A stretch of 64,000 nt of DNA, taken from assembly GCF_032854445.1 (NCBI RefSeq), contig NC_088303.1:22577501-22641500 (forward strand). The letters are read 5' to 3'. The translations under genes and the position numbers were made by a program. The notes under the pieces were generated by a model. It was not told the origin of the DNA. It saw only the letters and a program-made list of their open reading frames with translations, and ran no database searches. The DNA is from Liolophura sinensis. Lineage: Eukaryota > Mollusca > Polyplacophora > Chitonida > Chitonidae. This document shows positions 6,970-63,770 of the stretch, one piece after another (position 1 is the stretch's first letter; each line of letters opens with the position of its first letter).

Positions 6970-7215
6970 AATTAAAGGAATCAAACCCAGGTCGAGTCAT
7001 ACCAAAGATTTTAAAAATGGTATTTGTTACTGCTTCTCTTGGCCTGCAGCACTGAATGCTGCCTCCACTGAAGTATCATGCCGAAGACACCAGGCATGAC
7101 ACCCCACCCAGTCACATTATACTGACACCAGGTCAGCCAGTCTTTGTTTCCATGCTCCAACCTTAGTGCTGAGCACCAAGAGAGGTAGCAACGAAGTACC
7201 ACAAGGAGACACAAT
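6970..7215. mobile_element. SINE family S2, two pieces in opposite orientation
   Basis: The first ~60 bases (GGAATCAAACCCAGGTCGAG) match the S2 head region in plus orientation. The rest (CCAGTCACATTATACTGACA) matches the S2 body in minus orientation. Confidence 0.55.
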
Positions 7216-12168: not shown

Positions 12169-15100
12169 GAGATGACAATCTCGTCACCAGTACAGCCCCA
12201 GAAGCAGGCAGAAGACAAGGCACGAATAGAGGGATATCTCTTTAAACGTACCAGTAATGCCTTTAAGTCCTGGGTGAGGTAAGAAACCTTTAGCAAACTC
12301 AAATCCCTAACCAAACAGATGGCCTTTTTTAATGCCCAATAGAACAATTCTGACTGTTTATTAAACACCTGGCTCTGTTGTTCAAGATTGTATAAGCTAA
12401 CACCGATACGAAGTGACGTAATATATTTAAGATTTTAATATAACTAAGCTGCCAGTACATTTGTATTCAGACCACATGGAACAGAGCAGATTTACTTTAT
12501 GTTTAATATACTGTTACTCACTTATTTTTGGATCGAGTACAAAATTGAAGACTTAGCTTAAAATTATGTCTGGTATGAAGTGTTCAGACAGTTTTGAACA
12601 ATTTGCACATTTTTCTTGAGGCATTAGAAAAGGTGCGGTGAACTTCAGCTTCCAATTGCTCGTTTTCTCTTTTTCTCATAAAGTTTTTCATATTAAAAGG
12701 TGCATTTTTTTCTGCCTTTGATATATCTGGCTGCTGTAGACTCTATACATTTGATGCATATATATATATGCATGTATTCCTAACCTTAAATGGTGTTATA
12801 TACTCTCTCCGCTTACTTTGTGCAGGTAAACGTGAATGGCATCATTATTTTTTCTTCCCTGTTACAAGATTTAAATGATTTGGTCCATGACCTGGCTCAG
12901 TTTTCATTTTTTTGTGTCAAAGAGACCAGTGCAGTGTGTCATTCTTCAGTTAGTCTGATAACAACCTTGCTGGCATAAAATGTCTACTCTATGGATGAAT
13001 TTTGGTTAAAACCTGTAACCAGTGAGGACGTAGGTTCACATCCAGCTGTCATTGTACAGCAATGACTTTTAAGTGAGAAAGTTTGTCAGGTACTTTGTGA
13101 AGGGTAATAGTTAACTCAGAGAATACTGCATTCCTCCACCAATGCTTACCTAAAGTCAAAACTCTTTGGTGAAGTGTTAGACAAATAAATGAGTGTCCAT
13201 GACATGTATGTAACCTCTTGACTGATGTGTTGTTGTTGTTATCGTCAGGCGATGGTTCAGCATCCAGGAACGTAAGCTGGTGTACAGGAAGCGTACCAAG
13301 GACACCTGGACTGTGATGGAGGAAGACCTGAGGTTGTGCACGGTCAAACCTGTCTACGACCTGGACAGGAGGTTCTGCTTTGAAGTTCTCTCACCTGCCC
13401 GGTACGCTGCGCTAACAAGCATTGTGTCAGTCATGGACCATTTACACAAAGCTTATGTCATAGTTTGCTATAAAGAATGGATAACCATTTGTGGAAAGGG
13501 AATAACAGTAAAGTACATGTATTAGTGAGTGTTACATCCACTGCAGTGAAATTCAGTTCCCAAGGCAGACTTAATGATTTTAGATTCCTCCAGAATGATA
13601 ATGATGGGGTTTCCGTCAGTGAGACAGTATTTAATTTCCTCCATCTGAGGCAGTATTTAATTTCCTCCTGGGAGGCAGTATTTGATTTCCTCCAGGAAGG
13701 CAGTATGTAATTTTCTCCAGTGAGGTAGTATTTAATATCTTCCAGGGAGGCAGCATTGAATTTCCTTCATTGAGTCAGTGTTTGATTTCCTCCACAGAGG
13801 CAGTATTTAATTTCCTCCAACTGAGGCAGTATTTGATTTCCGCCAGGAAGGCAGTATTTAATTTCCTCCAACTGAGGCAGTATTTAATTTCCTCTAGTGA
13901 GTCAGTATTTAATATCCTCCAGTGAGTCAGTATTTCATTTCCTCCAGTGAGTCAGTATTTCATTTCCTCCAGTGTGTCAGTATTTCATTTCCTCCAGTGA
14001 GTCAGTATTTCATTTCCTCCAGTGAGTCAGTTTTTGATTTCCTCCAGTGAGTCAGTATTTGATTTCCCCCAGTGTGTCAGTTTTTGATTTCCTCCAGTGA
14101 GTCAGTTTTTGATTTCCTCCAGTGAGTCAGTTTTTGATTTCCTCCAGTGAGTCAGTATTTGATTTCCTCCAGTGAGTCAGTATTTGATTTCCTCCAATGA
14201 GTCAGTATTTGATTTCCTCCAACTGAGGCAATATTTAATTTCCTCCAACTGAGGCAGTATTTAATTTCCTCTAGTGAGTCAGTATTTAATTTCCTCCAGT
14301 GAGTCAGTATTTAATTTCCTCCAGTGTGTCAGTATTTGATTTCCTCCAGTGAGTCAGTATTTGATTTCCTCCAGTGTGTCAGTATTTCATTTCCTCCAGT
14401 GAGTCAGTATTTCATTTCCTCCAGTGAGTCAGTTTTTGATTTCCTCCAGTGAGTCAATATTTGATTTACTCCAGTGTGTCAGTTTTTGATTTCCTCCAGT
14501 GAGTCAGTTTTTGATTTCCTCCAGTGAGTCAGTATTTGATTTCCTCCAGTGAGTCAGTATTTGATTTCCTCCAGTGAGTCAGTATTTGATTTCCTCCAGT
14601 GAGTCAGTATTTGATTTCCTCCAGTGAGTCAGTATTTGATTTAATCCAGTGAGTCAATATTTGATTTCCTCCAATGAGTCAGTATTTGATTTCCTCCAAC
14701 TGAGGCAATATTTAATTTCCTCCAACTGAGGCAGCATTTGATTTTCTCCAGTAAATCAGTATTTAATTTTGTCCTGCAGGCAATAATGGGTATCCTTCGA
14801 CAAAGCAGCATATGGTTTCCTCTAGCAGCATGAAGGAGGCAGTATTTTGTTTCCCCGGAGAAGGCAATATTTATTTTCTCTTCAAGGCAGTATTTGTTTT
14901 TCTTCAACAAAGCATTGTCTGGTTTCCTCCAGCAGTACATTATTTTTTTTCCTCCAACAAGACAGTGTTGGTTTCTTCCAGAAATACATTATTTGGTATC
15001 CTGCATGAAGACACTATTTGGTTTCTCCAAACCAGGCAGTGTTGTGTTTTACAGCAATTCATTATCTGATTTCATTCAGCAAGGCAGTGTTTGGTTACCC

Positions 15101-18100
15101 CTGATTGGGAAATGATTGGTTTCCTCCAGAGCTAAATGCTACATGACTTCTTCCATTTCGTTAAATGCTGCATTTCTTTTAGAACTGCTTGACATAGCTG
15201 AAACTAGTGGAAGGACTTCCTGATATATAATTATGTTGTGAATGATTGTGTTTTGTATTTGCAGGTCCCACATGTTACAAGCTGACTCAGAGGCAGAATG
15301 TCAGATGTGGATGACAGCCATACAGGACGGGGTGAACCGTGCCTACAGAGAAACCTTATCTGGGCAGGACACAGAGGTAAACACCATGCACATGTCAGTG
15401 GGAAGGGTTATATCTGATATAAGAGAAAATTCATAAAGTTAGTGAAAGTGTGAGGACTGCTTCGGTGGCCTAATTGTTAGAGAGATTGTCTCGAATTGTG
15501 GAGATCAGGGATCAAACTCAGTTGCTGCCTCGCATGGTACTCAGCATGGAGAGGTTAGAGCGAGGAAACCGGACTAGATGGCACGGTGTCAGTATAATGT
15601 GACTAGGTGGGTTGTTATGGCTGGTGTCTTCAGTATGATACTTCATTGGTGACATGGACTCGCCCTGCCATAAGAACACACTATATGAACAAACACAACT
15701 CCTTGTCATCATATAACTAAAAAATTGCCAAGTACATGTATGAGGTAAAAACCCCAAGCCATACATACACAACAGTGAGCAAGGTTTGAGCAGCTTTGCA
15801 GTGCTTATACTGGCAGGTGCTGGTGGAAATTTCGCACTTAGGTCAGGTTGTGCTATGCTATATATGTGTAGATCCGAGTTCCAATCCAGTGTAACCCACA
15901 TACACTGTAGTACTCTTTTTCGTCCATTACATAAAGAAAGTATAATGAGGTTCTCTGTTCCTTGTTTCTTCCAGGAAGAGGCTGCAAATGATTCGAGTCA
16001 GCCTGGGGCACAGGCAGACAGTGTACAGGGAGATAACTCTACCCTACAACCCAAACAAACCACAGCCCAAAGGTAAGACTTCACACTTTACACAAGTAAA
16101 CTGGGAAGTGAACAAAATTATGTACAAACTTCAGACTGTCATCTTTAATACCTTGTGATTTTGATGCTATAGCTTTCAAAGATTCAGCATAATGCCAAAG
16201 TAGGTATTTTAGCAGTTTTTTTTATCCATATTGTTGCAGTAAAGTTGTAGAAGGTTTGTTTGATTTGTTTGATTGGTGTTTTATGCCATACCCAAGAATA
16301 TTCCACTTATACGATGGCAGACCTGCCCACGTATGGCCGGAGAGGAAGCCAGCATGAGCTGGACTTGAACTCACGGCGATCACATCAGTGAGAGGCTCCT
16401 GGGTCATTACGCTGCGATAGGGCGCTAACCAACTGAGCCACGGAAGCCCCCATTTGTGGAAGAGAACAATTCAACTTAGACCTGAAGAGCTGAAAGTATT
16501 ACGTATGACCGTGACCATGGCCAGTAAGCTGGTTGGCTAGCTCTCATAAATGTGCATAGACTGTTCACAATTGGTAATAGTTAAAAATACTGACAGTACA
16601 AGTGTGTGAAAAGTTTCAGAAATGGACTGCCTTATACTGAGACACAATATTAGAGACATCACCTTATCCATGTGAGAGTGATGCATTGTGAGCTCAGAAT
16701 TCTAGGACTGACTTTTTTTCATGTTGTCTTTGCTCAGATAAGCCTGGTGATCACACTGAGACGAACCTGTTGTTTTCTGTTACAGACGTATGGAGTTGCT
16801 ATTCTCGTTGCCTGGCAACAGTCGATGTTGTGATTGTGGCTCCGCAGAACCCCGTTGGGCCAGTACAAACTTGGGCATCACACTCTGTATAGAATGTTCA
16901 GGTTTTCACAGGTGAGCGTAAACTTCACCATCACACATTGTTACTCACAGGTGAGCATATATACCCCCAATTTTAGCAGTGTTTTGGCCATAATGTGGTG
17001 AGAAAGTCATTGAAGCATCACAGCATTTTGAAAATGAGTACACACCTGGGCATCACGCCCTTTACAGAGTGTTCAGATTTTCACTATTCACTATTCGCTG
17101 TGCTTTATGCAGAAACCCAGAAACCTTATGGCTCTCCTGTACACATAAGTGATAAAATAAAGTCTGGTGTTAAACAGGTAAATACCTTCATAAATGCCTG
17201 GTAAACTAAATGATTATCTGAAGTGAAGCCTAAAGAATTGGCCCGTGCCAACCTGCCTGATCTTACCTGGACAGTTATTTTGTCTGTACAGGAGCTTGGG
17301 GGTACACATCTCTAAGGTGCGCTCTATAACTTTGGACACCTGGGAACCGGAGCTCCTCAAGGTCATGACAGAACTTGGCAATGATGTGGTCAACAAGATC
17401 TATGAGGCACGAGTGGACGAGTCATTAGCAACTCGGGCAACATCAGATTGTAAACGGTGAGTTGATTTTGGCGGTTCTGCAATCATGTGGTTACTCTGGG
17501 AATATCTCAACATTAGAGTTTCATGTTCATGTACGTGGATCTATAGCTGCTAGGGCAATATCAAAATATAACTGTCGCTGAGTATTGGTGAGTGTTATAG
17601 GTTGGTATTTATTTATTTATTTGATTGGTGTTACATCACACTCAAGAATATTTCACTTATACAATTGTGGCCAGCATTATAGTGGGAGGAAATTGGGCAG
17701 AGCCCCGAGGGAAACCCACGGCCATCTGTACGTTTGCTGACAGACCATCTCAGTGAGGTAATTTTTCCATTCGAACTGGATGTATCAGTAGTGCAATCTG
17801 TGTACAGCACAACTGGCCCATGAATCGATCTACATGAAGCCAAGCTAAGCAGCATTATATCCTGTCATTTCTTTTAGGGTTTTCTTTCTTTTATTTTTGG
17901 AAATGTTGAGGGATGCAAGGTGGATATTTCATACATCTGAATTCTAATTGAAGATTTTTGGCAAAATATCAATCATGACAAATCCAGTTGACTTTTTGCT
18001 GTTGTATTTAAATGGCCCAAATAATTATCTCTCAGAAAGTGTCAGTCTCAATTATTTACTTGATACTGTTCAAAATCGGTAATAAAATTTTGTAAAATTT

Positions 18101-21100: not shown

Positions 21101-24100
21101 AACCTGTCACTTGGAGGTGGAGTGATAGTGCAGTTACCATAGCTACATGCTGTTTTAATATATGCATGGGTTGGAATTTTTTATATTTTTTTTTATTTTC
21201 ATCATTATGGATGCACCTGTACAATGTGCTTTCAACATGACACAGATGACAAACTCTGCCGGCCTGAAGAATTTGGTCCAGACTTACAGCTTGCTTCCTT
21301 CTGAATTGCGCGTGCTAGCTGCATGAGTATGACACGTGTGCCCTGAGCTAGTGGGCTTACATGTACATGTTCAAGACAAGTGTGTCGTTGTCATATGACT
21401 GAAAAATTATTGAGTACGACGTTTAACCCCAAGCACTCACTCAAGACAAGTGTGACTGGAGAATCAAATTCTCCCTCAGCATGGAGGCCCAGTAATTTTA
21501 AATTTGTCAGATAAATAATTTGACTTTCACTGAAGCTGTGCACAGCCCCACACGCTGCATTATTATGCACTGATATTATTGTTTGTAGCTATGTGTTGGG
21601 TGATACATGTAGGCATAAATTATGTAGCCGACACTTAAAGATGTATTTCTTAGTTCAAGATTTATTATCTTTACTGAAACTGAGGCATGCATGCAAGTAA
21701 GAATGTTTATTTTGTCTTTATTTCCTCTTATTCTTCACATGTACTTCATGCATGATGACATGATTGAAAACCTGAGGTGTTGGTGGACTGACCATTGCAT
21801 AGACTATTCTGCCAGGTGACAAGTATATTGAAAAGAATGTCAAAAGAAAAAAAAATGATATTAAAGTATTGAAACTTTGTTGGTACCTTGTGCTGTTTGA
21901 CTGGACAGTCCTAGAGCATTTCTGGGAATTTGGTTCTTGTATGCCTTGCCAAACAAAAAAGGAAAGAAAATGTACAGAAAGGTCAGGCATGATTATATAT
22001 ATATATACTGAATGTTCCATCGATTCAGGTCTGGATTTAGAAAGCTCTGAGGACTCATGTGAAGATGAAGTGGATGATATGAAATCTACGACATCTTGGG
22101 AGGATGTGAGTAAGCTGGACCCCAACACACTGCTGTTCAAAGCCGCGCAGGCGCGTAACCTTCCTGTGATGCTGGAGGCACTGGCCCACGGTGCTGATCC
22201 TAACTGGGTGAATGAGGACGACGAGGGTAAAACACCTCTCATCAAGGCTGTTGAGACAGTGAGTCAACCTGCAGTGCACGATAGGACATTATTTTTACAT
22301 GATTCAGGGCCGTAGGAAAATTCAGACGCCACTGAAATATCACTGCTGAAATGAAAGAGGTTGAGTGCATTAAATTTTTTTTTTCTGACACATCTGCTAA
22401 AAGAAGTCAGTGAGATCTTTGTATATAAATGTCTGGTTTTAGATTTAATATAAAGTAATTACCTTCAGTTTGAACAATGTGAATCACTGAAGTGTATATT
22501 GTACAGACATGTTTATAAGTGTACGTCTCGTGTTATGACTTCCAGCAGGGAGTCTTAGGAAGGAGTTTGTGTGTGAATGCTTTTTTATTTGTTTGCTACT
22601 TAATGCCATAGTCAGGAAGTTATCTCTGATATAATGTTGGGCAAGTTAATGGGTGGAGGAAACCAAAGTAAACCGTCAACCTGCTGCAAATTACTGGCAA
22701 ACCTTTCCATATGTAACGTACAAACGTGCACACCATTATTGGTTGAAGGCAAGTGGTCTTCAGCAAACATTAGACTGAACGAACAGTCACATGACCACCA
22801 TACGCAGCTTATTGTCTCACCAAAGCAGTGAGAGTAGGGGAACCTACAAATTCCCTGACCAAGGTATGTTAGAAGTGGAGTATTGAAGGGCGTGCTAGCG
22901 CAGCGTAATGACCCAGGAGCCTCTCACCAATGCGGTCGCTGTGAGTCCAGCTCATGCTGGCTTCCTCTCCAGCAGGGATGTCTGCTAGCAACCTGCGGAT
23001 GGTTTTGGGTTTCCCCCTGGCTGTGCCCGTTTTCCTCCTACCTAATGCTGGCCGCCATCGTAAGTGAAATATTCTTGAGTGCAGCGTAAAACACCAACCA
23101 AATAAATAAATAAATATTCAGGTGTCCATTTGTCTGTCTGTGTACTGTTGCAGGGTTCCCTAGCAGCCTGTGAGTTCCTGTTGTTGAACCTTGCTAAGCT
23201 GGACAGGAAGGACAAGTATGGACAAACACCATTACACCACGCCACACTGCTGGGTCACACTGGGTGAGAGAAATTGTGTTCAGTGTAATCTAAAGCTTAA
23301 TTTTCAGCATCAGTACAATATTGAACACTTTTCAGCATCTGTGATTTACAAAATAACTATTTGAAACAAGATCTTTGAAGATGTAGGCTCTGGGGTCTCC
23401 AGCATTTTGTTCCATAGTATCTATTTCTGACCAGCAGAACAACTGATAATTTAGCGTGTGATTATTGGTCAAAATGTATTGGAACATAGCAAAGTGTGAT
23501 GTAATGCCCAAATCATTTTCTGTGTAGACTGATAAAATTATACTTTTTGCGACACCCTGAAATTTGCCAATCCAACCAATGTAGTTTTATCTCCATGATT
23601 AAATTATAAAGGGGCATAAAATGCTGCAAGTTTCTCTTTCATATGCCAAAAAGTTGATGAATTAGGGTAGCTAAAGTAGTTATGTAGGATATCTCAACAA
23701 CACATGGTTGCGTGTTAGGAATCTCCCAATAACACCTCTCATTGCTATCTGTGAGGAATCTGTCAGAAGCACCACATGTGGTCATGTGTTAGGAATAACA
23801 AGGATAACAAGAAGTGGCTGTGTGTTAAGAATCTATCAATAACACCACTTGGCTGTGTTAGGAAGCTCTCAGTAATAGATCTGGTTGTGTGTTTGGAATC
23901 GTTTAATAACCCTTCATGTGGTTGTGTGCTTACAGTCAGGTGTGTCAGTTTCTGAAGAGAGGTGCCAATCAACAAGCTCTGGATAACAAAGGCAGGGTAA
24001 GTGTGACTACAGAAGAGTAACCTGAGTTCATTCTTCAGATTGTTACATGAAGTGGTAGGCAAATGCCTCTGGAGATATTAAATGAGAACATGGGAAATAA

Positions 24101-31603: not shown

Positions 31604-34600
31604 CTAGAACAAGGTGAATGTACCAGACACAGGTGTAGGTGGTGGACTTGCCACACTGGAGGTGCCAAAGCTGAAACTGAAACCATCACTATCTCCTGCT
31701 GTAGTGTCTGGTGGTCCACCCCCGAACAGCGAGAACACAGAGCCAGCATCCGACGCTCCTGCCCCACTGTTGTCACCGCCACTGAAATTAAAGGACATAC
31801 TCTGTCCCTGCTCAGTGTGGGCTGAAAGTAAAATACAGAAGCTGTTAAAAAAAATTATCACAAATAATAATAATAAAAAACACAAAAGAAAAAAACCCTG
31901 AAACAATGCTTACCAAAAACTTTCAACCAAAAATCACCTTTGAAGCTTGTTACAATAGGATCCTCCAAAAACATCTAGGTCACCATTTGTCCATATTCAT
32001 CATAAAGGAATCTGATTCAATTTTATTAATGCTCAACATGAGTAAAAGCTAGTTCTTCATATCTTCTCCTTAGCACCAATGGTTCATGTTGGCCCTTGTC
32101 ATATATAGTGAAATATCAGAGCAGTGGAGGCATGTAAAGGTAGGACTATGAAAAGCACAGACATAAATATGGTCAATATTACCTCACCAAGATAGGGCTG
32201 CAATATTACTGAAGTAGTGAAAGCCCATTAATTTGGAAACATTACCAGTGACGTGCTTAAGAGAATGGCCTTATCCAAGCTGTTACATGCATCATTAATA
32301 ATAATGTCTAATGTCTGAAGAAAAACATTGGTCCGGAGCACACTTACTGTAAATATTCAACCTTCTCAACCACTAAAGTACTTTTTCCAATGGTATTTAT
32401 GTATACAATTATTACAAAAATGACACCAAAATGATTATTGTCACTACAGATCCAAGCTTCATAAAACTGTGCAAATTATCTCTCTACACCCCATATTTAT
32501 CTCAGAATGTTTCAAAATATTGGTTGCAGTGGTGGTTGAAAGGTTGAAGCATTAGAGTACCTGGGCTGTCAGCGGGTCCAAACAGAGACTTTCCACCAGA
32601 TTCTGCTAGATCTGGAGACATAAATGCTGACTGGAAGGGCTTACCATCTCCTCTCTGCAAAATATGTTAACATATATGATCAGCACTGAATAAAAGTACC
32701 TTAGAGGTAAGCTATGCTAAGAAACACATAACATGTCCTAGTTCCAATCCGATATACCTTTATAATATATATAATATATAATTATATTGCAAATTATCTT
32801 ACATCAAATCGATATAATTCCCAACATTGATAAATCGAGACCAGTGAAAATACGGCCTCAAACTCGCAGCTATGGGTGTATGTTCCTACTGCTGCACCAA
32901 CTGAAGTATCCTGCAAAATGGGAACAGCCACCTTTTTACAATCTACCTTGCGTCTTTACATCAAGACACCCTGCATTTATTGCACAATGTACAAAGAGAT
33001 GACTTGACAAACTGCAATCATGAGTGAATACACTGAGAAGATATAATTTCCAAAATTATCTGTCAGTGTCTGTGGTGTAATTATGTCTATACTTGATGTA
33101 TTCCCTGATGATAATTGGGATATAAATCATCTTACCCCATCCGGAAAAAAAGACTGAAAGAATGGATTATCTTGCATTGTGTTATTGCCCTCATTCTTGG
33201 CTGCCTGCTAAAATCAGCGAAACATGAAAGAAGAAAAAAAATTATTGCAGTGTGAAAAAAGTCAAATGTAGCTCCATTAATAAGACATTGGTTGGTGTAA
33301 ATTATTGATTCATATATTATGACAAATCCACTGGTTACTTGGTTAATATGTGAATAGTTATACTTCAACATGACTTGGGGAAAATGTGTATCATCAGTTT
33401 CATTAAACTGAACATAAAGTCTGCCATTATATATACATAGAAAATAGGACACATTTATCAAAGAAAAGTCGGTAAAAATTCTATAAAGTTATGAAAGCCG
33501 AGAAGATGAAGTTCAGTATTGGGGATATAGCACTGACGGACAATTCACTCCAAGTAGCCATGTTGTAGAAGCCCTTATGAACTTGGCCAATCACTAGTGC
33601 AGAAAGCGTCACATGATAATTGGCTGTCATGTCAAAGAACCTATTAGCTCTTGATTAACAGTGTGGTCTCCTATAGTGGATGGACAGATATTGATGCAAT
33701 AAATTAGATTTTGCGGTCAGTATAAGTGTTAAACGTGTGCATTTTGCATTTTGGTTGGGCACCAGGCGTTTTTGTTTGTATTTATCTCGGATACAAATAG
33801 TACGGGAGAGCTCCTAGGTTTGGTGATTGGTGACGTCACTCTAGATAGCTATAACATGGCAAAATGGCATTACCAAATGAGTGGCTAGGTAATGACAACT
33901 GTTTGGTATTTCTTTTGTTGATAAGCATTGTAGAATTTTTAAAATATTTTGAGAAGATTTCTGGAATACTACTTCATTTATTAATTGAGATTTAGTGGCT
34001 GACTTTATGTTCACTTTAAAATGTGGGCTATCGGTATATACACCAGGAGAAGCTGTATTTCTAGTAAACAGCAATCTGCAATCATGTCATCTTTACCCTT
34101 TAAATACAACATATCAAAGAACATATCATAAGAGGTGATGAACTTAAGATGGGCTACAAAGTCTGGTGGGCATGCGTAAACCTTCTCTGGGACTGATGGT
34201 TCTGTAGCAAACATTGGGCGTGTAGAATACTGAGGGGCTGCTGGGGACTTGGTCAGAAGACGGACTCTCTCCAGGTGCCTCTCCAGGTTGAATGGACTGA
34301 CATTGTTGTCCTCTGTGCCATGCTGAGCAGGTGTAGTTGGCTGAGACATCTGAATTCCATCCTCCCGGTGTTCTGTGTGGTAAAACATATCATGTACAGT
34401 GCAGGACAGTGTTAGTCTATGCCAGACAGAAATATCAAACTGAATGTTACTCAAATTTCACAGTATTGTAAGTTGTGTTTAAAATCATATTAATGATGCT
34501 GGCAAAGCTTGGACAAGTATACATCACAATTGTTGATGAACAGCAGTACATAGATACATGAATTTGGAATTCAATTTATGTTTGCACCATTTAACTTCTG

Positions 34601-37600
34601 TTAGATACCAGTATCTGGTATGAATAATGTGTAAACATGTAACGGTAATTTATCTTACTGGGGTTTAATACCATACTCAAGACTATTTGATTTTCATGAC
34701 AGTGGCCACTTTTATGGTTGATGGAAACTGGAATGCTTAGAGTACACTTGTAAACAACTGGTCTTTGACAAGTAACCGGTACATATCGGGTAGACATCAA
34801 AACATGGGCCGTGTTTTGATGCTGCATTGCTCCATTATCCTCTGTTCAAACCCTTTCAAACTTCAGACATTCAAATGGCATGATTTTGTTAATATACTGA
34901 GTAGTCTGCACACAGGGCAAAAATGAAAACATAGCCACAAAAACGCACGTTCCGGTGACCCACACTGCATCACCTTTCAGGTGTCATGAGTAGAGTGCGC
35001 ACTGCACCCGTGTGACAGTGTTGTCTTGAAAAATTGTCTGGCTCTAGTGTCAGAGAAACCCTTCTGACAGACAGGAACAAGTTTTGCTGAATCAAGATGC
35101 ATTTCTAAGCGGCGGACAAGGAATTGATGACCTTTTCAAGTAAAGCAAGGTACAACATCATTTTGAAATGTCCAGGACATGCCTTTTTGACTCTTTTTTG
35201 ATTTTGGTCCCATGAACAGAAATCTTTAAGGATGGAATTTGGTCTTTATACTTAGGACATAATGGCTTTATGGCTTTTGAGTGTGTAAATTTTTAGAGGC
35301 TGACGTAAGAGGGTTTTGGAGATATTGAGTGTCAAAGTACGGCCCATTTTTTTATGCCCACCCGATATATAGGTGGACCTCCACATTAGTGACCAGTTAA
35401 CAATCTGATAACAGTGGAAGCTGGGAAAATCTTCAGAATTTCCTGTTTCAGGCTTAGACTGAACAAACACTTTGTGTGTGCTAGCTAATGTTGTGATAAT
35501 GTCCTGAACACTCAATCCACTAGTGACCTTCACAGTCTGACTGTAGTATACAGCACATTATGTACAAACTACGTCATATGGAGGGCATGTGTTTTTATTG
35601 AAGTACACCTATACCTGGAGTTTTGGGTTCCTTCCTGCGTGGGCTAAGGGCAGTGCCATCATTCTGAGTGTGTGGTAAAGGTGAGGGTATCAGTTCAGCC
35701 TCCGACTTGTGCTGTGCTGAAGGTCTCTCTACAAGCACAAAACAATCACAAACTGGATATCCACTGATGTCAGAAATCATCTCTATTTGTTACAGTTCTT
35801 GCAGGATATTCCCAGGTCGTCAAGAAGCCATATGCAATTTGATTTATTTTAGGAAACAGGCTTTCATTCATTTCATCAAACATTTCATGTTGGATTCCAA
35901 TACAAATGTCAACACCCTTTCAGTTCAGCATGTCCAATCCTAATCTTCTGTGGGAATCCCTATCATTCTTCCTTTCTCTTTTCTTAACTGCTGTAATAGC
36001 AAGATAGGTTTTGGGTAAACTTTAAGAAGAACAGTTTCAAAATCAACAAGATGGCTATTCACTATGTTCACCCCGAGTTAGGCAAAACTTTTAATAGGAA
36101 ATGTGCTGTACCTTGGGAGTAGTCCTGTGTGAGTTTGGGAGTTGGGCAGGTATCCTGGAACACAGATGCTCTAGAACCCACCTGAGGACTTTGTGGCACA
36201 CAGAGAGGTGCCTCTGGAACTTTTCCTGTGTCCTATGAGTCAAAATGGAAAAAACAAAATGCACAATCTCATCCACTGAGTCCATACTCTTACTCTAAAT
36301 TACACACTTTATCTTTGCCACACATCACGTATTGTTATACATGATGTTTGCCAGAGATTATTGAAGTCAGCCTTTTCAATGCATGTGCATACATACATGC
36401 AAGCTGAAAGTTAAAGATCAGATTATTGTAATTCTTCAACCTTTTTGCAAGTTTGCAAGGTGTTTATTCAAGCATATTCTGAAGCCATTATTCTGTGTTG
36501 ACTGAAAAAACTGTACGTTTTGTGAATTTTTTTGTAGTTTTTTTTTTATCAAAAATCAAATTCAAAACGGGCACAAATTGCACTGAAAGTTCCTCTTTCA
36601 TATGCAAAAAGGTTGAGGAATTTGGGTAACACAGAAAGCTATCTAGCAGAAGAGAGAATATTGTATTTGGTCATCTTAGAACTTGATCACCAAGTGAAAT
36701 GAAAATTAATAATCATTGTAAACTTCTAACACACAAAAGTGCTCAGTTGTAAACAAAACCTTAATTGCAGTACATAGCTACATGGTCACCATACCTGAGG
36801 AGGCAACCTTTGTTGACCTGTCAGAGCCTCACAGCTACTGGACTTGCTACTTCCAGAAGGAGATGATTTACCCTGATCGGGGCCAAGTTGGTTTGGGTGT
36901 TTGAATACAGCTTGGCCTAGTTGTCCTTCTCCTTCAGTAACAGGTGCTTGGATGATTGGAGGTTGCCCGAGACCTGAAGGCCTGGGAGTCACATGGAGAC
37001 TGCTGGATGCAAAGTTAGGAGACTGTCCAGGGGTTGCAGCAAGTGGAGCTAGGAGAAAGTAGCTGCTTGGCTGAGACTGACTTTGCATCTGAGATCCTCC
37101 CATGGCACTCGTCTTTGGCATGTACTTCAGCTGAGCTGAAAAGTGTTAACGACATGTATACATGTATGACAAGAAGCAATCCAATGATAAACTGATCATC
37201 TAGACACTTGGGTCTTACTGAAATTAAAGAAAACAAGAGCAAAAAATATGAATGCATCAACAGGTTATAATTTGGATATAATTGCATCATAATGACTTAA
37301 TTTCTGTCCCTCACACAACACCACCATTTTTTTTTACTTTCCTTGGAATCATAAGAGAAATAATATAACGATAGTGCAATCATGTAATCTATTTTTCAGA
37401 GGAGTAATATCATTGATGTGTAGGCCCTACAGTGTATTTGAATGCAGGTCCTGCTTACTTGGCTGCACTGATGCAACATGCAACCGACTGGTACCTGGGG
37501 AGGTGTTTCCCTGGTTTTCTCTGTCCTGCAGCAACTTGAAATATTCTTATTAAAGAACAAGACAGCAACTGGCTAAAACATATTTCAATTGAAGGCAAAA

Positions 37601-40600
37601 GTATCGCACTTTATTATTTTAATGAGATTTTCACCGAATAACATAAATAACAAAATGGCAATACTGCACAAATGGCTGGTGTGCATCGAGGCAGCCATCT
37701 TGAGAATTTTATTCAATTAAAAAAGCTTGCTATCATTGCACGGCTTAAGCTGTGACGTAACCTTTACCCATTCACTCCATGAAGTGACATATGATAACAC
37801 AGAACTACTGCATAAGACTAAATTTTGAGGTCGTTTACAACGATTTAGTTACGAATAGCCAAAGGGCCATTTCACACACCGTCAATTGTGGAACAGGTCT
37901 GTATCATTTACGGACCACACAGACATAAAATCAGTAACTTCCAAGCTGTGTAATATTCAACGATGGTATCACAAATTATGTCAGACAGTAAGTACAGTAG
38001 CATACCATCTCGGCCCAAACCGCATTCATCTGCCAATAGACCTTACACCTATACTTAGTCATGCTGCTTAAAATTATACAAATACATTTCTTGTTGTTCA
38101 TTTTAGCATTTAGTCAGAAGTTTCTCCATGACAAATATGAGAAACACTGCTAAATTCATCAGGGATGAAGAAGGTTTGTGGGAATGAGAAGACTGCATCT
38201 CACCAATTTAAATTTTACTCCTTTGTCTTTCTTGCATACAAGGGGTGTTTTTTCGGTTTTCTTTTATAAAATACAGTAAAATTATTGAAACGCTGTGTTC
38301 AAGCCGAGGTGCTTTCTCTGACGTCCGCAATAACTAGGTCGCTGCTTTCATCTTAGAAGCCACCGCTACAAATTGAAGCATAAAAGTTGTTTCAGGATTG
38401 ATCATGAATCTAGTTGTACAACAATCCCATTGTAATTTTGTAAACATTTAATAGGGGTCAAAATCACCAGCACAACCCCTCAGGAGACTATGAACTGAAC
38501 TAGGACTACCCCAGCCGTACATCTGCAGCTTGGCTATTTAAACAGGGTTGCTGGAGTTCCTTGTAAATGATATAGTAGGCCTACTGTATCAATAGTTCAA
38601 GAAGTGGAAGAAATATTTTCCCACTATGTCAAATTTCTGAGAAAGCTATATTTATCACTTGGTCCTTCATCGCCCAAATTCACAACTTTTACCTGTCTTA
38701 CATTACCGCTTAGACTATTACTAGTATACGGAAAATACTTTCGACATTGGAGAGCTTGAGTAAAAGTGACGTCACCTTGCCCATAATGGAGACATGCTGA
38801 AGCTGTGTCAAGACGAAGTTTCATTAACCTTTTACTGGGTTGAAAAAAGTCTAAAAAAATATTTAATGCCTTTTTAAGATACTTTGAATGGTAGTCTTTC
38901 AGTGGACATAAACATTAGTCAGATGCTTTTTTTCATGTTAAGTATGGTAAGTAAGAAACAAATCCCCTAAAACTGCTGTAACACATGGGTTAATCACCTA
39001 GACTGTGACTTACTTTGTTGCATCCAAATCGTAACCATGAAAACAGCTATGTGAACACAGACAAATCAATCGAACATACCATGTATACCATTGCTAGCAC
39101 CTCACAACCTACTATGATGTCATCCACAAGGTATTCTAGCCAAATCAATGAGAGGAGATGAATAATCCTTTACATAGAAGCCTTTCATCTGCCCAGGGGG
39201 GAAGAGAAAAAACACACCTGATGAAGTTATCATATGGCTATGACCCATGTTCCCGGCATGTATCCCATAACTCTGAGGCAGGCTGGCAGGCTGCTGATGA
39301 CATTGGACATGTTGTAGCACCTGTGGCTGAGACCCAGCTGGTTGACACTTGGCTGGAAGTGGCAGAGACCTGGATGGAAGTGATTGAGACCTGGCTGGAT
39401 TTGGCAGAGGTCCATGTGGCTGAGATCTAGCTGACTGATAAGCGGCCTTCTGTAATATCAAATCTTTGTTTGGTTGTTGGAACATCCTGTCACCACCATC
39501 ATACATGCTGAAATATCAACAAGCCTTTGTAAATTAAAATGATCAATTTTTAGATTGTAGTCCTCTTTACCTGCTTTAAAAACAAACTATTCAGTTGACT
39601 TCAGTAAATCACCTATGTCATGGAATCCTTCCCCAACCGATTGCCATGCTGCAATCTAACACTGTGAGTAAAAAAAGTTTCACATGATTTTTTTTTCAAG
39701 CAATTTTTTGGAGAAAATATCCATGAAATTATAGTAGGGGATTTGTATGCTGTTCCTAGTATTTTTTACTTCCATAACTAATGACAATAACGTCATATTT
39801 TCCAGAGATCTCTTAAACTGATTAGGAAAGCCACTAAATCTGAAAACACAGCCTGTTTTATTTATATGTTTTTATATTTCACAGAAAAAAAATGTTTAAA
39901 TGAAAAAACAAAACACAAAGAACATCTATATTCAAATGGGCCAACATTAAAATCACTATCAACAAATAGCTTCTGTGTAAAAAAGAACTGAAACTGAAAC
40001 TAAGTGTTGTGGGGCTCTCGTAATCTATACTTCATTTGTTGGGAAGGTCTGCCAAGAACCTGCTGATGGTCGATGGATCCTCCTGGGCTGTGCTTGGTTT
40101 CCTCCCACCATAATGCTGGCTTCCGTTGCATATCATGTGAAATATTTTTGAGTACGGCATAAAACACCAATGAAATAAATAAAATGTACCATACACTTAC
40201 TGAGCTAGTGTAGACTTCTCCAACCCTATTTCAGCCTGTGTCAATTTCTCTGTACTAGTACTGTTCACACCTGTTTGGCTGTAGCCTGACGCACTGCTCA
40301 TCTGGCTTTCTCTGTTATCAAGCTGAACCGAGTTATCTTGTTCACTCACATCAGCTTGGGGCATGGACTCAGATGCATGACTCTGCTCCTCTTCTGCCTG
40401 ACATTCGTCAACAAATTGAATTCTATGTCTTTATGATAGATTCATAGCCATATGCAATTGTATAGTCGACATTGGATCTTTACACAACCTTGACCAAGCT
40501 GGTTTCTGCAGAACATGTGAGTGTATTGAATTGGTACATGTAGTGTCAGACAAATAGTGTCAGAGGTTATGGTGGATCAGGGAGTTTGTTTTACTATGAC

Positions 40601-43600
40601 CATGAAGCGAACAAATGCAACAAAGAAACAAAATCTGATCTCCATTATACAGCCACTATGGTGTCATAATAACTCTTGGTGTCTCAGGAGGATGCCTCAA
40701 GCATCACTGAGACCCATGTGAAGGGTGTCCTAAATCCAAAATTTCACCTGTCCAGAGGATTAAGTTGAGGCTACACTAGGAAAAATTGGTGAATCAAACC
40801 TGGCTCATGGAGAGAAAAATGGTGACTTAAACAAGGCTGGTTCCATTTAGGACGGCTTTTTTCTCATCCACCAATTTTGGTGGCCTATATTAGAACAGTT
40901 CCGTTTAGTTCACAATTGCTGGTTAAGATGCATAAACTAATTCTCAATACGACCGATGCAACCTTGTGCTGCCTGAAAGCAAATCAAACATTAGATCTAC
41001 TGATCAATGTGTAAATGCAAGCAGCCATAAATTGGTGAACTGAACGGAGCAGGCCCCAATGCTGGCCTTTTTCAGTCCGGAAAAGCTACTCCAGTGTAAC
41101 TGTGATTTTTTTCACCATGGCTGCTCGACTGTTCCCTGGAAATTGGTGCTGCAGATTGCAAATTCTGTTGTGATCCACTGAATGTCTCACCAAGTAGGCT
41201 TTTATTTTTGCCATTTTCATGCAGAATCTCAATTGATAACCTTATACTTGCTTTTCGGGAATCCACATGCAGAATCTAACCTTAAGTTAGAGCCACAAAG
41301 CTGTTGCCCCATTTATTTATTTATTTATTTGATTGGTATTTTACGCCGTACTCCAGAATATTTCACTTATACGACGGCGGCCAGCATTATGGTGGGTGGA
41401 AACCAGGCACAGCCCGGGGGAAACCCACGACCATCCGCAGGTTGCTGTCAGACCTTCCCATGTACGAACAGAGAGGAAGCCAGCATGAACTGGACTTGAA
41501 CTCACAGCGACCGCATTGGTGAGAGACTCCTGGGTCATTACGCTGTGCTAGCGCGCTAACCGACTGAGCCACGAAGGCCCCGCTGTTGCTCCAAGTGAAG
41601 ATTTTTAATGAATATATACATGTACAAGTATTGGTAATCAATATTGTGGATTCCCTGTTAATAACTCAAATGATGAAAGCTCATGTCCACTTTTCCAAAG
41701 AAAGTATCGTAGAAAGGAAATTTGAGAACATTCCAATTGAGTATTTGTTAAGTTACTCTTGTGGTTTTACAAGAATCTTCTTGGATTCTTACTTTTAGCA
41801 GTTATTCTTTATAATTAAATACTGAAATGGGATAACATATCTCTATATGACTACAAGTTTCTCATTAATATGCACAAGATTAATTCTGAATTTAATTAAG
41901 ATAATGCAAGTATAAATAATAGCTTCGTACTTAAAAGGTGATGTAAATTTATCAGCTGCATGTGGAGACTAAGACAGTAGAGTACCTTTGCTTGCAATTT
42001 CCTGGCTCGCTCTTCCTCTATATTTTTCTGCTTTTGCTTCCTTTGTTTTATTTCACAAAGTTCTCTCTCCAATGCTTGTAACTTTTCTTGTTTCACAATG
42101 ATCATTTTGCAGTTTTTCCTGGAGTCCAACTTTAACTGTGCACTTATTTCATGTTAAGGTAAGAAATTTGTTGTCTTATCTCGTGGTCTGACATAATTGG
42201 CCAGTCGATGCTGGGCTTACATAACTGTGTTCTAGGACAATATGAAAGAATAATACCAACAACAGAAGAAGAACAACAGTGACCGATAGGAGCATGAAGA
42301 GGTTAAGAAACCCATGTAAGTCTCCTGATACCTTCTTCCTTTCTGTTTCAGGACATCTTACGCCCGCCTGACAAAATGGAGCTAATAATTATTAGTACTT
42401 ATGATTATTAATTAAACATTAAAGGATACATGGCAACAAGAAAATGCTTCATGTCATAGATGTCAACATCAGGCCCTGCAAAGGTAATTTCTGTACAGTT
42501 ACATAGAGAAAGTATATACACATTTATAGAAAGGAAGTAAAGCCCAGTCCAGACTACCCAACATCACTCAACTTCTGTGGCCTCAACAAGAATCAACTTG
42601 ATGCTGAGTCAACAAGATGAGTCATTTTGAGTAGTCTTCAACACACTCTTTTTTGTTGAATCGGAAATGTGCATGTGTATTTTTTGTCATCAAGTTGAGT
42701 GAAATAGCCAATCAGCGAACGTCTAGAAATAACCTGACCATCTGAAGGCAAGTGAACAGCCAATAAACCCACGACGCGATTCTTCCGGCTGCTCATCACT
42801 GTGTCTCATGCATTGGAGAGAAAGATGGAAATTTCCCTCCATTTTATCGAAAGTTTGTTAAAAAAAAACATGCTACACATGGTTCAACATGCGACAACAG
42901 TGTTGGACAATCTTGACCTATCTAACTTGTAGTGTGGACGGGACACTCAGCAGCATTTAGCTTGCTGTTGAGTTAACAAAACTTGAACAATGTTTGATAG
43001 TCTGAACGGGGTTAAACAATTCACTACCATAACCTGTTCTCATATATCCAGTTCTTAAGTATACTGCTATGGTTGTGAATAAAGCAGAACCTATGGACAT
43101 GGAACACACATTTCTAGAAAACTGAAAGGGAAACATTTTAACTATACACTTATTTCCCTAACACTGTGATAAATAACAAGAAAATTTCTAAGTGCTTAAT
43201 ATGATGTGGATGTTTACAGCTGCAATTACATGTACATGTAAAACAGCTTGAACCTAAAATGAACCTTCATGTAGAAGCTTACCTTTCAATTCTGCAATGG
43301 CTGTTTCCAACTCCTCTATTTTCTTGTTGACTTCATCCAGTCTTGCAGATGAGGTCTCAATTTCCTTTTGTTTTTGTAGAAATGTTTGAGCCAATGGGAA
43401 TGATTCATACTTTTGTTTATAGTCTTCCCAAATATTTGTGTAATGTTGTAACACATTTCTCCTGTCAGTTCTGAAAGCAAAATCTTAAGATTTAGAAATC
43501 AATGAATTGATCTCTCACACTTCTTTTGATATTTTAACTTTACCTTACATCATTTTCTTAAAAGTTATTTTCAACCCTTTGAGCTTTCTTTTTCAAAATG

Positions 43601-46600
43601 CTTTGCATAAATATTAAAAATTTCAAATGCAATTTATTAAAATTTTCTTCAATTTAATTCAGACATGGTCGTAATTAAATGTCATGATCAATGAGGAACT
43701 AATATTCTTAATAAACTTGCTCCATGGCGTTAAATGTTTTTTACAGAGTACTTGTGCTACCTTCATTTGTGTATATACAGTAGTAAGGTACTTTCAAGAA
43801 AGAAATGAACAACACAGTTTGAGAGCAGTTGTTTCAATTGCAGCAGAGATATATGTTCTCTTCATTGTTTGGTCAAAACTTGACTCTTTATGGCTTAGTG
43901 TGGATCAGGGGGGACAACTCTTTGCAACAACTGGAAAGAATGAAATTTTTCTTTACAAAATACCACAAGAAAAATGACAACCCTGTATTATTTGATTACC
44001 CAGTATTTACTTTACCAGAAACTGCTGAGAATTAAAGAATTGAACCCACAGTCTGAATTAAGTCATGCTGTTATAAGTGACAAAAATAAAACTCATATCT
44101 TTATGTTGAGTTTGCACCATATGATTACGGACAATGGAATATTCTCCAGTTTGGCACAAACACCTATGAAACAAACAAAATCAAAAATAAAAATAAAGGG
44201 TAATGAATGCACTATGTTTTGATATCTTTGGCCTTGCAATGGAATAAATGGAATCAATGTGATTACTTTTCCTGTTCACCAGTGACAACCACAGCATTCA
44301 ACTTTTTCATCAGTGCCACTTCATGGTCCAGTAGCACACAGGCCGTCTTCCTCAAGCTATATTAAAAACAAAAGTGTCAGAATTAGTACTTTTTCCAATT
44401 CAAACCAGTTTCACGGATTTAAAACAGATTGACAGGTCATCGTGGGTGTTGATTGAAGTTGCTTGGGGTTTAACTTGTACTTTTCAACAATTTTTCAGTC
44501 ATATGATGACGAAGGAATCCTTAGAGTACATGTAATGTGCCTCCCTGTTGCAGGACAGATTTCCACTGCTCTTTTATCTAGTGCTGCCTCACTGAGATGC
44601 CTTCCTGAAGGCAAGTAAGACACCCCGCCTGAGCCATTATACTGATACAGGTCAACAACTTCCTCTTTAAAGCCTTAGGTGTGACTCGACCCTAGGATTG
44701 ACCCCGGATCTATCGCTGCTGCACGAGGAAATAAGCCAAAACCATAATTACTGTAGTTTTTATACGCTAGATGGCAATTAACCCGATGGTTAATAGCACA
44801 TTCTGGTGATCGACAACGTAATGAATTTGAAGATTTGTTCAGAAGAACAACTTAACATGTAAAGTCATGTTTTAAAATGGGGAGGGGGGGGGGGGGGCAA
44901 TATTAAACTGTACTATAGCTACCAATTTTGTGCAGTGCCTTTAAAGTTGAATACACTGCAATGTACTTTTACCATCTACAGCTGCAGAGATTTGAACAAA
45001 TTCAAGTTGTGAAATATTTCTCAATAGAGCCCTTCTTGTGTATTTCATTTTAACATTCTGGAGGTTATCATGTAAATCTAACTATTATTCAGTGTTCTGA
45101 GTTCCAGCAAAGGTACAGAATAAGAAATTGGATTAACTGTATTTTTAAGAATCAGTGGTATATTTCCCACAACTCAGAGTAGACTGTACAACTTTCTCAA
45201 GTAAATGTCTGTCGATGTGGACAAGGCAAATGTACACCAATTAAACCAATGTATTGTTGTTAATTATAAACCCACAATCAAATTCAAACTATCTCTTTTG
45301 ACTTGGTTACTAAAGCAAATAGTTTAATCTTCGACTTTGGTTTACGGTTTTAATACCTGTCACAATTATCCCTATTTTGAATGAACTGTTTGTGCACCCT
45401 CTTGGTTTCCTCGTCTAGTTGTGTTGAGGATTCTTGGAGACACTCGATTTCTGATTTCTTCTGAATTATTTCCTTTTCAAGACCTGTAAAATACACACAA
45501 AAGATGTGTAACTTAAAGAATATGAAATGTCAAAGAGGCTGCTAAAAAAAGTCCTCTAAAAATCGAGGTAGGCATCACTAAATAGACCACTTAAAACCAT
45601 GCATAAATATACTTTAATTCATTTTTTTTTTTTTAGATTTTTGTGCAAAGAGTTAAAGGCACCCAAACATTTGACTTTTAATGTAGTCTTTATGGACCAT
45701 ACTATGAGAGGTTAGGAACTCTGACGTCACAGGAAGTTTATCCAACTCTAATCACAACACTGAATGTTGGAATAACTTTTTACCCATGAGTGAACATTAC
45801 TGAAATAATGTTCCCAAAATTTCCTTCCTTCTGGTGACCATCAGGAAAAAAGGTGATGTGTTGTCAGAGTTCCTAGATACTGTCAGTAAGGAACATAAAG
45901 CTCACCACAGTCTTCAAATATCTGAACACCTTTCATCACTCTCAAAAAAAATCTGAAAAATAAATGAAAGTATTTTTACACAAAATTTTTCGGTTGTCTT
46001 TATGATGAACCTTACTTCATATTTAAGCCTTCTTTTACCTTAATGAGATAGACTACACTTCATCCATTCTCATTGAGTTCATCAGAAGTCCCTGTATTTA
46101 TGTACATGGAAGCCTGTCGTAACAGCACAAAATTATGTATCTATTATGATTTCTTTGGTGTACTGTAGTCACCCAGACTAGTTAACTACTTACCACATGT
46201 ATATAAATAAAACTTCTCACACTTATCACACCACGAATTTTTTTTTTTTTTTTTTGAATTTAAAATTATTATCCTTACCTTCCAACAGCTGATTCTCTTT
46301 TTCAATAAGCTTTACAATTTGCTGATTTTCATATTCTAGGAAATGAAATAAGAATATTTAAGTACATCGAGTGCATTTTATTTGATTGCTGCTTTACCTA
46401 TGCAGCAGGATATTATCAATACATGTGCATTCATACTTTACTATCTATATGTATCAGATTAATTAACACTGCTGTTCACTGAATATAGGTGTTCAAGCGT
46501 AATATGATGAATGAAACCTAAGACAAAAAAAAAACATATAGTTAATGGCATCAACAGTAAACCTACCAAAACTTTGGATGAGACTGTCCAACTCCTCAGG

Positions 46601-46633
46601 ACTGTTCCCCATTGACAACAACCCAGAATTCAT
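31604..46633 (-). CDS. SIX6OS1: SIX6OS1 (C14orf39)-like synaptonemal complex central-element protein
   Basis: Exons in coding order (plus coordinates): 46567-46633, 46279-46335, 45906-45938, 45357-45483, 44267-44356, 43283-43470, 41986-42135, 40201-40397, 39216-39507, 37459-37525, 36795-37135, 36112-36232, 35615-35728, 34182-34372, 33136-33207, 32561-32654, 31604-31821, giving about 800 aa. The start is the ATG at 46633 (MNSGLLSMGNSPEELDSL). The first third is predicted coiled coil. DNCDSLRKTACVLLDHE and YTNIWEDYKQKYESFPLAQ align with human SIX6OS1 DNCRNWKPTCDVFRKHE and YKEVLKQYQLKYSETPFSR. The last exon is Phe/Gly-rich (FSLFGGG, GFSFSFG) and ends GTFTLF, as human ends in QFTFF. The middle is Ser/Pro/Gln-rich and probably disordered. 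In mice the family partners SYCE1 and is needed for synapsis. Uncertain: the 43283-to-42135 junction is out of phase, so at least one exon is missing (a possible acceptor precedes 42475); the donor near 39216-39218; and the acceptor near 45938. Usual vertebrate length is near 590 aa. Confidence 0.75.
32344..32560. mobile_element. MITE family M1, copy 3 (inverted)
   Basis: Opposite orientation to the copies at 1424 and 52960, with ends ATTCAACCTTCTCAACC and GGTTGAAAGGTTGAAG. It abuts the donor site of the SIX6OS1-like exon 32561-32654; the donor GT (32559-32560) lies inside its terminal bases. Confidence 0.75.
36425..36630. mobile_element. MITE family M1, copy 4
   Basis: Ends TAATTCTTCAACCTTTTTGC and GCAAAAAGGTTGAGGAATTT are inverted repeats. 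In a SIX6OS1-like gene intron. Confidence 0.75.
39331..39432 (-). repeat. Coding minisatellite in the SIX6OS1-like gene
   Basis: Imperfect tandem units of about 21-24 bases on the plus strand share GAGACCTGG and TTGGCAGAG-like cores. On the coding strand they produce a Ser-Gln-Pro-Leu-rich low-complexity segment (ARSQ, SLPSRSLPLPAK). Confidence 0.6.
40038..40186 (+). mobile_element. SINE family S1, 3' fragment
   Basis: Body and tail (TTGGGAAGGTCTGCCAAGAA, CATAAAACACCAATGAAAT). It ends about 15 bases from the donor of SIX6OS1-like exon 40201-40397. Confidence 0.85.
41312..41581 (-). mobile_element. SINE family S1, full-length inverted copy
   Basis: Complete tail, body and tRNA-like head. Flanked by GCTGTTGCCCCA and GCTGTTGCTCCA (41300-41311 and 41582-41593), a target duplication with one mismatch. 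Confidence 0.9.
42540..43016. mobile_element. Non-autonomous DNA transposon, about 480 bp
   Basis: Left end GCCCAGTCCAGACTACC pairs with right end GATAGTCTGAACGGGGT as imperfect inverted repeats, flanked by TAAA on both sides. It lies in the SIX6OS1-like gene between exons 43283-43470 and 41986-42135, where the coding model has a gap. Confidence 0.6.
44450..44720 (-). mobile_element. SINE family S2 copy, inverted
   Basis: Tail first (CTTGGGGTTTAACTTGTAC, TTTTTCAGTCATATGATGAC), then body (GCCATTATACTGATACAGG), then head with TGACTCGACCCTAGGATTGA. In a SIX6OS1-like intron. Confidence 0.7.
44882..44897. repeat. Poly-G tract
   Basis: About 14 consecutive G in an otherwise AT-rich intron of the SIX6OS1-like gene. 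Confidence 0.9.
45711..45880. mobile_element. MITE with TTAGGAACTCTGAC ends
   Basis: Left TTAGGAACTCTGACGTCAC pairs with right TTGTCAGAGTTCCTAG. About 165 bp, in an intron of the SIX6OS1-like gene. It carries a CRE-like TGACGTCA. Confidence 0.65.
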
Positions 46634-47074: not shown

Positions 47075-47333
47075 AGGGCCTCCGTGGCTCAGTTGGTAGG
47101 CACACTAGCGCAGCGAATTGACCTAGGAGCCTCTCACCATTACAGTTGCTGTGAGTTCAAGTCCAGCTCATGTTGGCTTCCTCTCCAGAAATACGTAGGG
47201 AGGCCTGCCAGCAACCTGCTGAAGGTCATGGGTTTCCCCCGGGCGCTGCCCAGTTTCCTCCTTGCCATCGTCGTATAAGTGAAATATTCTTGAGTACGGC
47301 ATAAAACACCCTTCAAATAAATAAATAAATAAA
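47075..47333 (+). mobile_element. SINE family S1, near full-length copy
   Basis: Head GGCCTCCGTGGCTCAGTTGG, body and (AAAT)n tail are all present. About 440 bases upstream of the SIX6OS1-like start codon. Confidence 0.9.
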
Positions 47334-47507
47334 AATTAACAGTTTATGGCAAACCTTGATTCTCACAGGCGGCAGAAGATACAGTTTTATTGAAAATAGG
47401 TTGGAATATAGGCCCTTATTTTCTGATGCTAATGTTTAGCCAAACATTTAAAGAGCTAAACTAATTGAACAATCTTGTTACCTTTCACTCTAAAGGTCTT
47501 TGTTTTA

Positions 47508-49367: not shown

Positions 49368-49571
49368 GGCTTGTGATTGCGCGATACAAGATAGAACGTA
49401 CAGTTTATATTTTTATACAGCTGTGATCTTGTTGTGTTTTTGTTGTAAAATATTTTCTGAATTTAATATGATGTCGAATTCATCTCCAGAAAAATATATT
49501 CCACCATATGACATGGCGCATGAATATGAAAATAGTTTGCAAATGTGAAAGGACACCTTGTCGAAGTCAAA

Positions 49572-63770
<14,199 letters not shown>

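Follow-up and report, generated by a model that had tools for sequence, protein, structure and literature searches.

A probable orthologue of the synaptonemal complex protein SIX6OS1 in the chiton Liolophura sinensis

A split gene on the minus strand of the 64-kb window, the whole stretch of DNA that we analysed, is very probably the orthologue of SIX6OS1 (C14orf39), as judged by sequence comparison. SIX6OS1 is a central-element protein of the synaptonemal complex, which zips chromosome pairs together during egg and sperm formation. The original prediction had read the locus as a probable orthologue, and this reading is supported by a match above the Pfam cut-off, by the gap between this family and the next one, and by a search of the genome with the chiton protein that found this locus alone. 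Since the likeness of the C-terminus is weakly significant, membership in the family rests on the N-terminus.

Structure of the predicted gene

The gene runs from an ATG at 46633 to a stop at 31604, which had been named as its ends in the original prediction; both proved to be real limits of minus-strand open frames. Exons 1 to 5 encode an N-terminus of 176 residues. We derived exons 1, 2, 3, and 5 from the blocks of the original prediction and added exon 4. Exons 6 to 11 are predictions based on open frames and splice phase. The numbering from 1 to 11 omits a provisional exon at 42475-42430.

Exon 1, 46567..46633, minus strand: ATG and the first 22 codons, with LDSLIQSF; in-frame stop upstream, GT donor
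Exon 2, 46279..46335, minus strand: EYENQQIVKLIEKENQLLE; AG and GT sites, phase 1 to 1
Exon 3, 45357..45483, minus strand: coiled coil, with RDNCD at its end
Exon 4, 44267..44356, minus strand: SLRKTACVLLDHEVALMKK..., carrying 'HE'; 90 bases, found by scan
Exon 5, 43283..43470, minus strand: the YTNIWEDYKQKYESFPLAQ... block
Exon 6 (predicted), 41986..42118, minus strand: charged helical; open frame, weak AG and GT sites
Exon 7 (predicted), 40201..40397, minus strand: acidic low-complexity linker; open frame, phase-compatible splice sites
Exon 8 (predicted), 39218..39507, minus strand: linker; open frame, phase-compatible, strong donor
Exon 9 (predicted), 36818..37135, minus strand: linker; open frame, splice sites; 3′ end uncertain
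Exon 10 (predicted), 34097..34372, minus strand: linker; open frame, splice sites; both ends uncertain
Exon 11, 31604..31821, minus strand: C-terminus with FxF motifs and GTFTLF-stop; open frame and acceptor

To find exon 4, we scanned between exons 3 and 5 for AG...GT exons in the phase of exon 3 and compared them with human residues 77-117. The exon that we chose scored 18, compared to 23 for the best candidate of the scan. It was preferred despite the lower score because it contains 'HE', its length is a multiple of three, and it places exons 3 and 5 in one register. Its splice sites are weak by an approximate matrix. With this exon, all the blocks that had been described as DNC...HE and YKQKYESFPLAQ are present in the chiton gene: DNC in exon 3 and YKQKYESFPLAQ in exon 5, with 'HE' on an exon of its own.

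Further downstream, exons 6-7, 7-8, and 8-9 join in compatible phase, and the joins between exons 9 and 10 and between exons 10 and 11 can be made in several ways. For the 3′ end of exon 9, phase favors 36818 and donor strength favors 36795. Exon 8 contains an internal 21-base tandem repeat at 39350-39409. As exon 5 leaves phase 1 and exon 6 (42118-41986) requires phase 2, either a short exon is missing between them or a boundary is wrong. A micro-exon at 42475-42430 is compatible in phase, but 4686 of 20,000 shuffles equalled its likeness to the human protein in fixed register, and we rejected it as the bridge; spliced alignment and splice-site scoring across the interval yielded nothing convincing. 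The provisional chain of 12 exons, with this bridge included, has 668 codons without a stop, compared to 587 in the human sequence used here.

N-terminal domain, docking segment and tail

The profile search that had been proposed as a check on the original prediction placed the spliced product of exons 1 to 5 above the family cut-off. The Pfam SIX6OS1 model (PF15676), which has a curated cut-off of 27 bits, matched 138 residues of the 176-residue product with 40.6 bits (E 1.7e-10); the next Pfam family reached an E value of 0.0038, seven orders of magnitude weaker. A hand-joined chiton model of 639 residues scored 36.6 bits. Products from which exon 4 was left out, one of which carried a small number of intron residues where its exons had been joined, gave no match to the family in a Pfam scan.

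For direct comparison, we used a human SIX6OS1 sequence, which the Pfam model scores at 901.9 bits across all 557 positions. Chiton residues 15-176 align with human residues 9-170 without a gap: over 162 residues, 36 are identical and 75 are similar, for a score of 136. We used two kinds of shuffle: among 800 scored without gaps (400 per kind), the highest score was 54, and none of 4000 scored with gaps (2000 per kind; maximum 79) reached 136. As exon 4 had been picked with the human sequence in hand, we repeated the test without it, and the fixed-register score was 119 compared to a maximum of 12 in 20,000 shuffles. The N-terminal coiled coil that had been described at this locus is present in exons 1 to 3, and the similarity of the N-terminus to human SIX6OS1 is above chance. 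In mammals, residues 1-261 are described as a conserved helical N-terminus (PMC5095591), and our comparison covers this region, ungapped, over human residues 9-170. Neither the human sequence after residue 170 (171-260; VPAPFPS onward) nor exon 6 in the human register gave a significant match between the two proteins.

We also slid each exon separately along the N-terminal 259 residues of the human protein. The register common to the whole alignment ranked first of 218 for exon 3 (shuffle p 0.0002), first of 230 for exon 4 (p 0.0001) and first of 197 for exon 5, for which none of 20,000 shuffles was as good. For exon 2, it ranked sixth of 241 and was not significant (shuffle p 0.07). Scoring of exon 1 over its full length was not possible at the common offset. 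Exon 5 was also the best tblastn match of the human N-terminus within the window (E 0.018).

The gap-free match begins in exon 1, where chiton LDSLIQSF aligns with human LDRLLLEF, residues 9-16. For this block, p was 0.0004 when exon 1 was shuffled and 0.0035 when the block alone was shuffled; for residues 7-22 of exon 1 together, p was 0.021. Residues 1-67 of mammalian SIX6OS1 bind the SYCE1 core and convert the SYCE1 homodimer to a 1:1 complex, deletion of residues 10-21 abolishes binding to the core, and a second contact with SYCE1 comes from sequence further on within residues 1-262 (PMC7467691). By sequence, the segment needed for binding to the SYCE1 core appears to be partly kept in the chiton protein, with moderate significance. 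In the chiton gonad, the N-terminus of SIX6OS1 would dock on a SYCE1-like partner in prophase I, with the helices after the docking segment supplying a second contact, and the two proteins might together help SYCP1 filaments to zip homologues.

At the other end, the original prediction had likened an FSFSFG...FTLF terminus to that of vertebrates. The terminus is present in exon 11, which reads ...MSFNF...VFSLFGGG...DGFSFSFG...GTFTLF, and its match to the vertebrate C-terminus is weakly above chance. With the alignment fixed at the final residue, the human C-terminus was matched as well by 42 of 5000 shuffles of exon 11's own composition; with local alignment left free, the number was 384 of 5000. 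The chiton tail has three FxF motifs, compared to six in the human tail, and both tails end in FTxF. The two tails may weakly resemble each other in style. The predicted tail is tied to exons 1 to 5 by strand and phase alone.

Genomic setting, partner proteins and alternative readings

When the chiton protein was searched against its own genome, all five matches with E ≤ 1 (eight candidates scored) lay at this locus. A genome search exon by exon with PF15676 gave no candidate and missed the locus, and a whole-genome search with the human N-terminus (eight candidates scored) gave three matches elsewhere (E 1.03, 2.15, and 9.11) and not the locus. These searches miss the gene because its exons are short and diverged.

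The vertebrate gene was named for its adjacency to SIX6, a position that does not define homology. The original prediction had noted no SIX gene nearby; we saw none in the 64-kb window, and a genome search for SIX domains (11 candidates scored) gave seven matches, all on scaffold C6 at 12.70-14.76 Mb, while the chiton gene is on scaffold C9. Since chiton chromosomes are strongly rearranged (PMC12005716), the absent linkage says little on ancestry. Elsewhere in the window are a 734-codon open frame with leucine-rich repeats, an ankyrin-like exon slightly below the Pfam cut-off, and a forkhead exon; a PH-like piece matched no Pfam family. The host had been taken for an invertebrate, as indeed it is: the assembly (PMC11068029) was first described as Liolophura japonica, and the species was later corrected to L. 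sinensis (PMC12441733). Its mitochondrial COX1 (contig C99) is a single open frame under the invertebrate code. As expected, phage records held no match to the chiton protein, and none of 139 stretches of prokaryote genomes that fit a pattern was confirmed. Among sequences of solved structures, the best match to human SIX6OS1 residues 1-259 had an E value of 0.41.

We searched the genome for other components of the complex, with SYCP1 and SYCP3 as positive controls. Both are present: a spliced SYCP1 fragment scored 60 bits (cut-off 23), and SYCP3 gave five matches, four of them collinear, of which three are at or over the cut-off and two read through TAG at their edges. With SYCP1 and SYCP3 found and the docking end of SIX6OS1 partly kept, parts of a vertebrate-style complex exist in this animal. 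The absence of a SYCE1 partner had been named beforehand as evidence against an orthologue; no SYCE1 was detected in this genome, by searches that could easily miss it. The SYCE1 model PF15233 gave two matches with E ≤ 10, neither over the cut-off, in frames that by eye we take to be other coiled coils, and the human SYCE1 core gave one match (E 0.10) in a frame that, by eye, is presumably MTERF-like. Taken together, the frames that we read from these searches (L001, L002, L006, L007, and L011) are, by eye, presumably myosin-like, other coiled-coil, MTERF-like or broken. For SYCE2, SYCE3, and TEX12, nothing in the genome exceeded the cut-off, in tests that were weak; across the searches for all four proteins, the lowest E value was 0.10. 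The S6OS1 model also failed exon by exon on a gene that is there. According to earlier work cited in PMC4132317, SYCE2 and TEX12 occur in Metazoa and SYCE1 in Bilateria, while SYCE3 is confined to vertebrates, so that at least three of the misses may reflect a failure of the search.

Several other readings of the locus must be weighed. Coiled coils resemble one another, and the 176-residue product matched 30 Pfam families with E ≤ 10, with 24 others among the matches listed spanning 0.0038 to 3, as well as seven NCBIfam families that were far below their own cut-offs (0.00021 to 0.43; three SMC-like). However, it is very improbable that we are comparing two unrelated coiled coils: S6OS1 is over its cut-off and seven orders above the next Pfam family, shuffles that preserve heptad class reached at most 33 in 20,000 and the decoys (the SYCE1 core and the reversed human sequence) scored 42 and 43, compared to 136 observed, and the residues common to the two N-termini include NC, HE, KY, and P, which reach beyond heptad positions. 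A more serious alternative, although still an unlikely one, is that exons 1 to 5 are SIX6OS1, whereas some or all of the predicted exons 6 to 11, with the FxF tail among them, are part of a different gene or have been given the wrong boundaries. The unsettled junction between exons 5 and 6, the several options for joins 9-10 and 10-11, the introns of more than 2 kb ahead of exons 10 and 11, and a C-terminal similarity that 42 of 5000 shuffles equal at best all agree with such a division. A single gene is favored by the common strand, the compatible phases at 6-7, 7-8, and 8-9, the closeness of the provisional 668-codon chain to the human length, and the FxF and FTxF motifs of both tails.

The true orthologue could instead adjoin a SIX gene on C6, with the C9 gene a paralogue. 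The human N-terminus matches the genome best at C6:14775509-14775649 (38% over residues 75-122, genome E 1.03), and a SIX-domain gene is found 15 kb away at C6:14760548. Within the 30 kb examined, the E value of this match is 1.85e-4 over human residues 76-132; the chance that one of three matches falls less than 20 kb from one of six SIX loci is roughly 0.1%. Yet those 30 kb hold no further match better than E 0.99 with either the human or the chiton query, and the C6 frame has no likeness after YIC, while the C9 gene fits the Pfam model over 138 residues. We judged this lone 57-residue stretch to be a chance match rather than a second copy of SIX6OS1, and give the C6 alternative scarcely any credence. 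Finally, a protein with a SIX6OS1 domain could have another, non-meiotic role in molluscs. The failure to find SYCE1 fits such a role, but the partly kept docking segment and the presence of SYCP1 and SYCP3 in the genome argue against it, and we regard it as quite improbable. Our preferred reading is that the C9 gene is the chiton SIX6OS1.

Relatives of the chiton protein and evolutionary meaning

By these comparisons, the chiton and vertebrate proteins share the same gap-free N-terminal domain, with an LDxL..F start and NC, HE, and KY..xP blocks. They are also of similar length (provisional chain) and probably both have a long low-complexity middle and an FxF tail ending in FTxF. The chiton protein differs in its 22% identity, in having no match past human residue 170 and fewer FxF motifs, and in the lack of linkage to a SIX gene; a SYCE1 partner was not found in the genome searched.

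The likeness to two other proteins is one of layout. Like the predicted chiton protein, SYP-4 of Caenorhabditis elegans has an N-terminal coiled coil and a phenylalanine-rich disordered tail. Nine phenylalanines of the SYP-4 tail are reported to be required for crossover control and for recruiting a pro-crossover factor, a predicted E3 ligase, and they also influence the physical state of the synaptonemal complex (PMC11833701). By analogy, the chiton tail might recruit crossover factors or tune the physical state of the complex. SCEP3 of Arabidopsis has a coiled coil and FxF repeats, as the predicted chiton protein does, but with the two parts in reversed order (PMC12711579). SCEP3 is reported to be structurally similar to SIX6OS1 and SYP-4 (PMC12711579, PMC12283363) and has been named a probable structural orthologue of both (PMC12283363).

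The paper that characterised SIX6OS1 states that the protein first arose in cartilaginous fish and is clearly identifiable from lobe-finned fish to mammals (PMC5095591). A 2021 review describes it as possibly absent from bony fish (PMC8531508), and a 2025 paper counts Six6os1 among the zebrafish components (PMC12425308). An invertebrate orthologue in print is that of Bombyx mori, which appears in a supplementary table (PMC12360503, PMC12956816); it comes from an insect and ours from a mollusc. No mollusc SIX6OS1 was among the literature matches listed, in a coverage mostly outside subscription journals. As far as that literature reaches, this is the first SIX6OS1 in a mollusc, and automatic 'SIX6OS1-like' labels may well exist in databases.

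The chiton gene is an added member of a known family and is of real evolutionary interest. Taken as far as it will go, the evidence indicates that molluscs and vertebrates probably inherited SIX6OS1 from an ancestor that both share. A mollusc SIX6OS1 would make the protein at least as old as the bilaterian ancestor of protostomes and deuterostomes, and the SYCE1-SIX6OS1 half of the central element would no longer be a vertebrate addition. A bolder proposal, which we consider doubtful, takes SIX6OS1 as an ancient central-element subunit of that age or older and, in addition, traces the coiled-coil and FxF layout of SIX6OS1, SYP-4, and SCEP3 to a single ancestral protein that controlled crossovers; the chiton would hold a comparatively slowly changing animal copy of it. 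The chiton sequence can be used to build a deeper profile for testing whether these three proteins are homologous or merely alike.

SIX-domain and synaptonemal complex loci elsewhere in the genome

Six SIX-domain loci lie on one scaffold of the Liolophura sinensis assembly (G000:C6:12.70-14.76 Mb), where they form three groups of two, three and one. As bilaterians usually have three SIX genes, this count is double. A partial genome duplication, to which the six loci may perhaps be related, is reported for Liolophura in PMC12005716.

A frame 15 kb from a SIX gene on the same scaffold (G000:C6:14775509-14775649, minus strand) is 37% identical to residues 76-132 of human SIX6OS1 over 57 columns (E 1.85e-4, search space 30 kb). 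No additional exons were found around the frame within those 30 kb, and we took the similarity to be due to chance.

Exons of SYCP1, another synaptonemal complex protein, were found at G000:C1:39489625-39492759; one piece reads KPTM...FFKPLSN, which resembles the SYCP1 N terminus.

Genes and repeats in the window

An open frame, part of a gene and three repeats were recorded:

3278-5482, minus strand: leucine-rich-repeat open frame of 734 codons (Pfam LRR_8)
49536-49961, plus strand: beginning of a forkhead gene (65.6 bits against Pfam Forkhead)
13610-14769, diverging up to about 15100: minisatellite with a 25-base unit (46 copies, 88% matches)
6735-6978, 10029-10320, 17606-17752, 22890-23127, 40040-40183, 41309-41583, 47076-47339, 56206-56377: first dispersed repeat
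1426-1641, 32344-32559, 52960-53173: second dispersed repeat (three copies, about 215 bases)

The leucine-rich-repeat frame, whose first 568 residues were covered by the Pfam scan, has a hydrophobic start and a threonine-rich stretch followed by a basic C terminus. The forkhead exon presumably resembles FOXJ2/3.

The first dispersed repeat, at most about 290 bases long, is present in at least eight copies with 71-84% identity among the 40 longest pairs, and two of the copies lie within predicted introns of the SIX6OS1 gene. The last predicted intron holds one copy of the second repeat, whose copies are 75-79% identical among the matches listed.

A mitochondrial contig

COX1 occurs seven times on contig G000:C99 (108,685 bases), at a spacing of about 15.5 kb:

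8348, 23885, 39496 (partial), 54929, 70450, 85975, 101504: COX1 copies

This contig is a concatemer in which mitochondrial genome copies follow one another head to tail, and it probably arose as an artefact of assembly. COX1 was also found on G000:C632.
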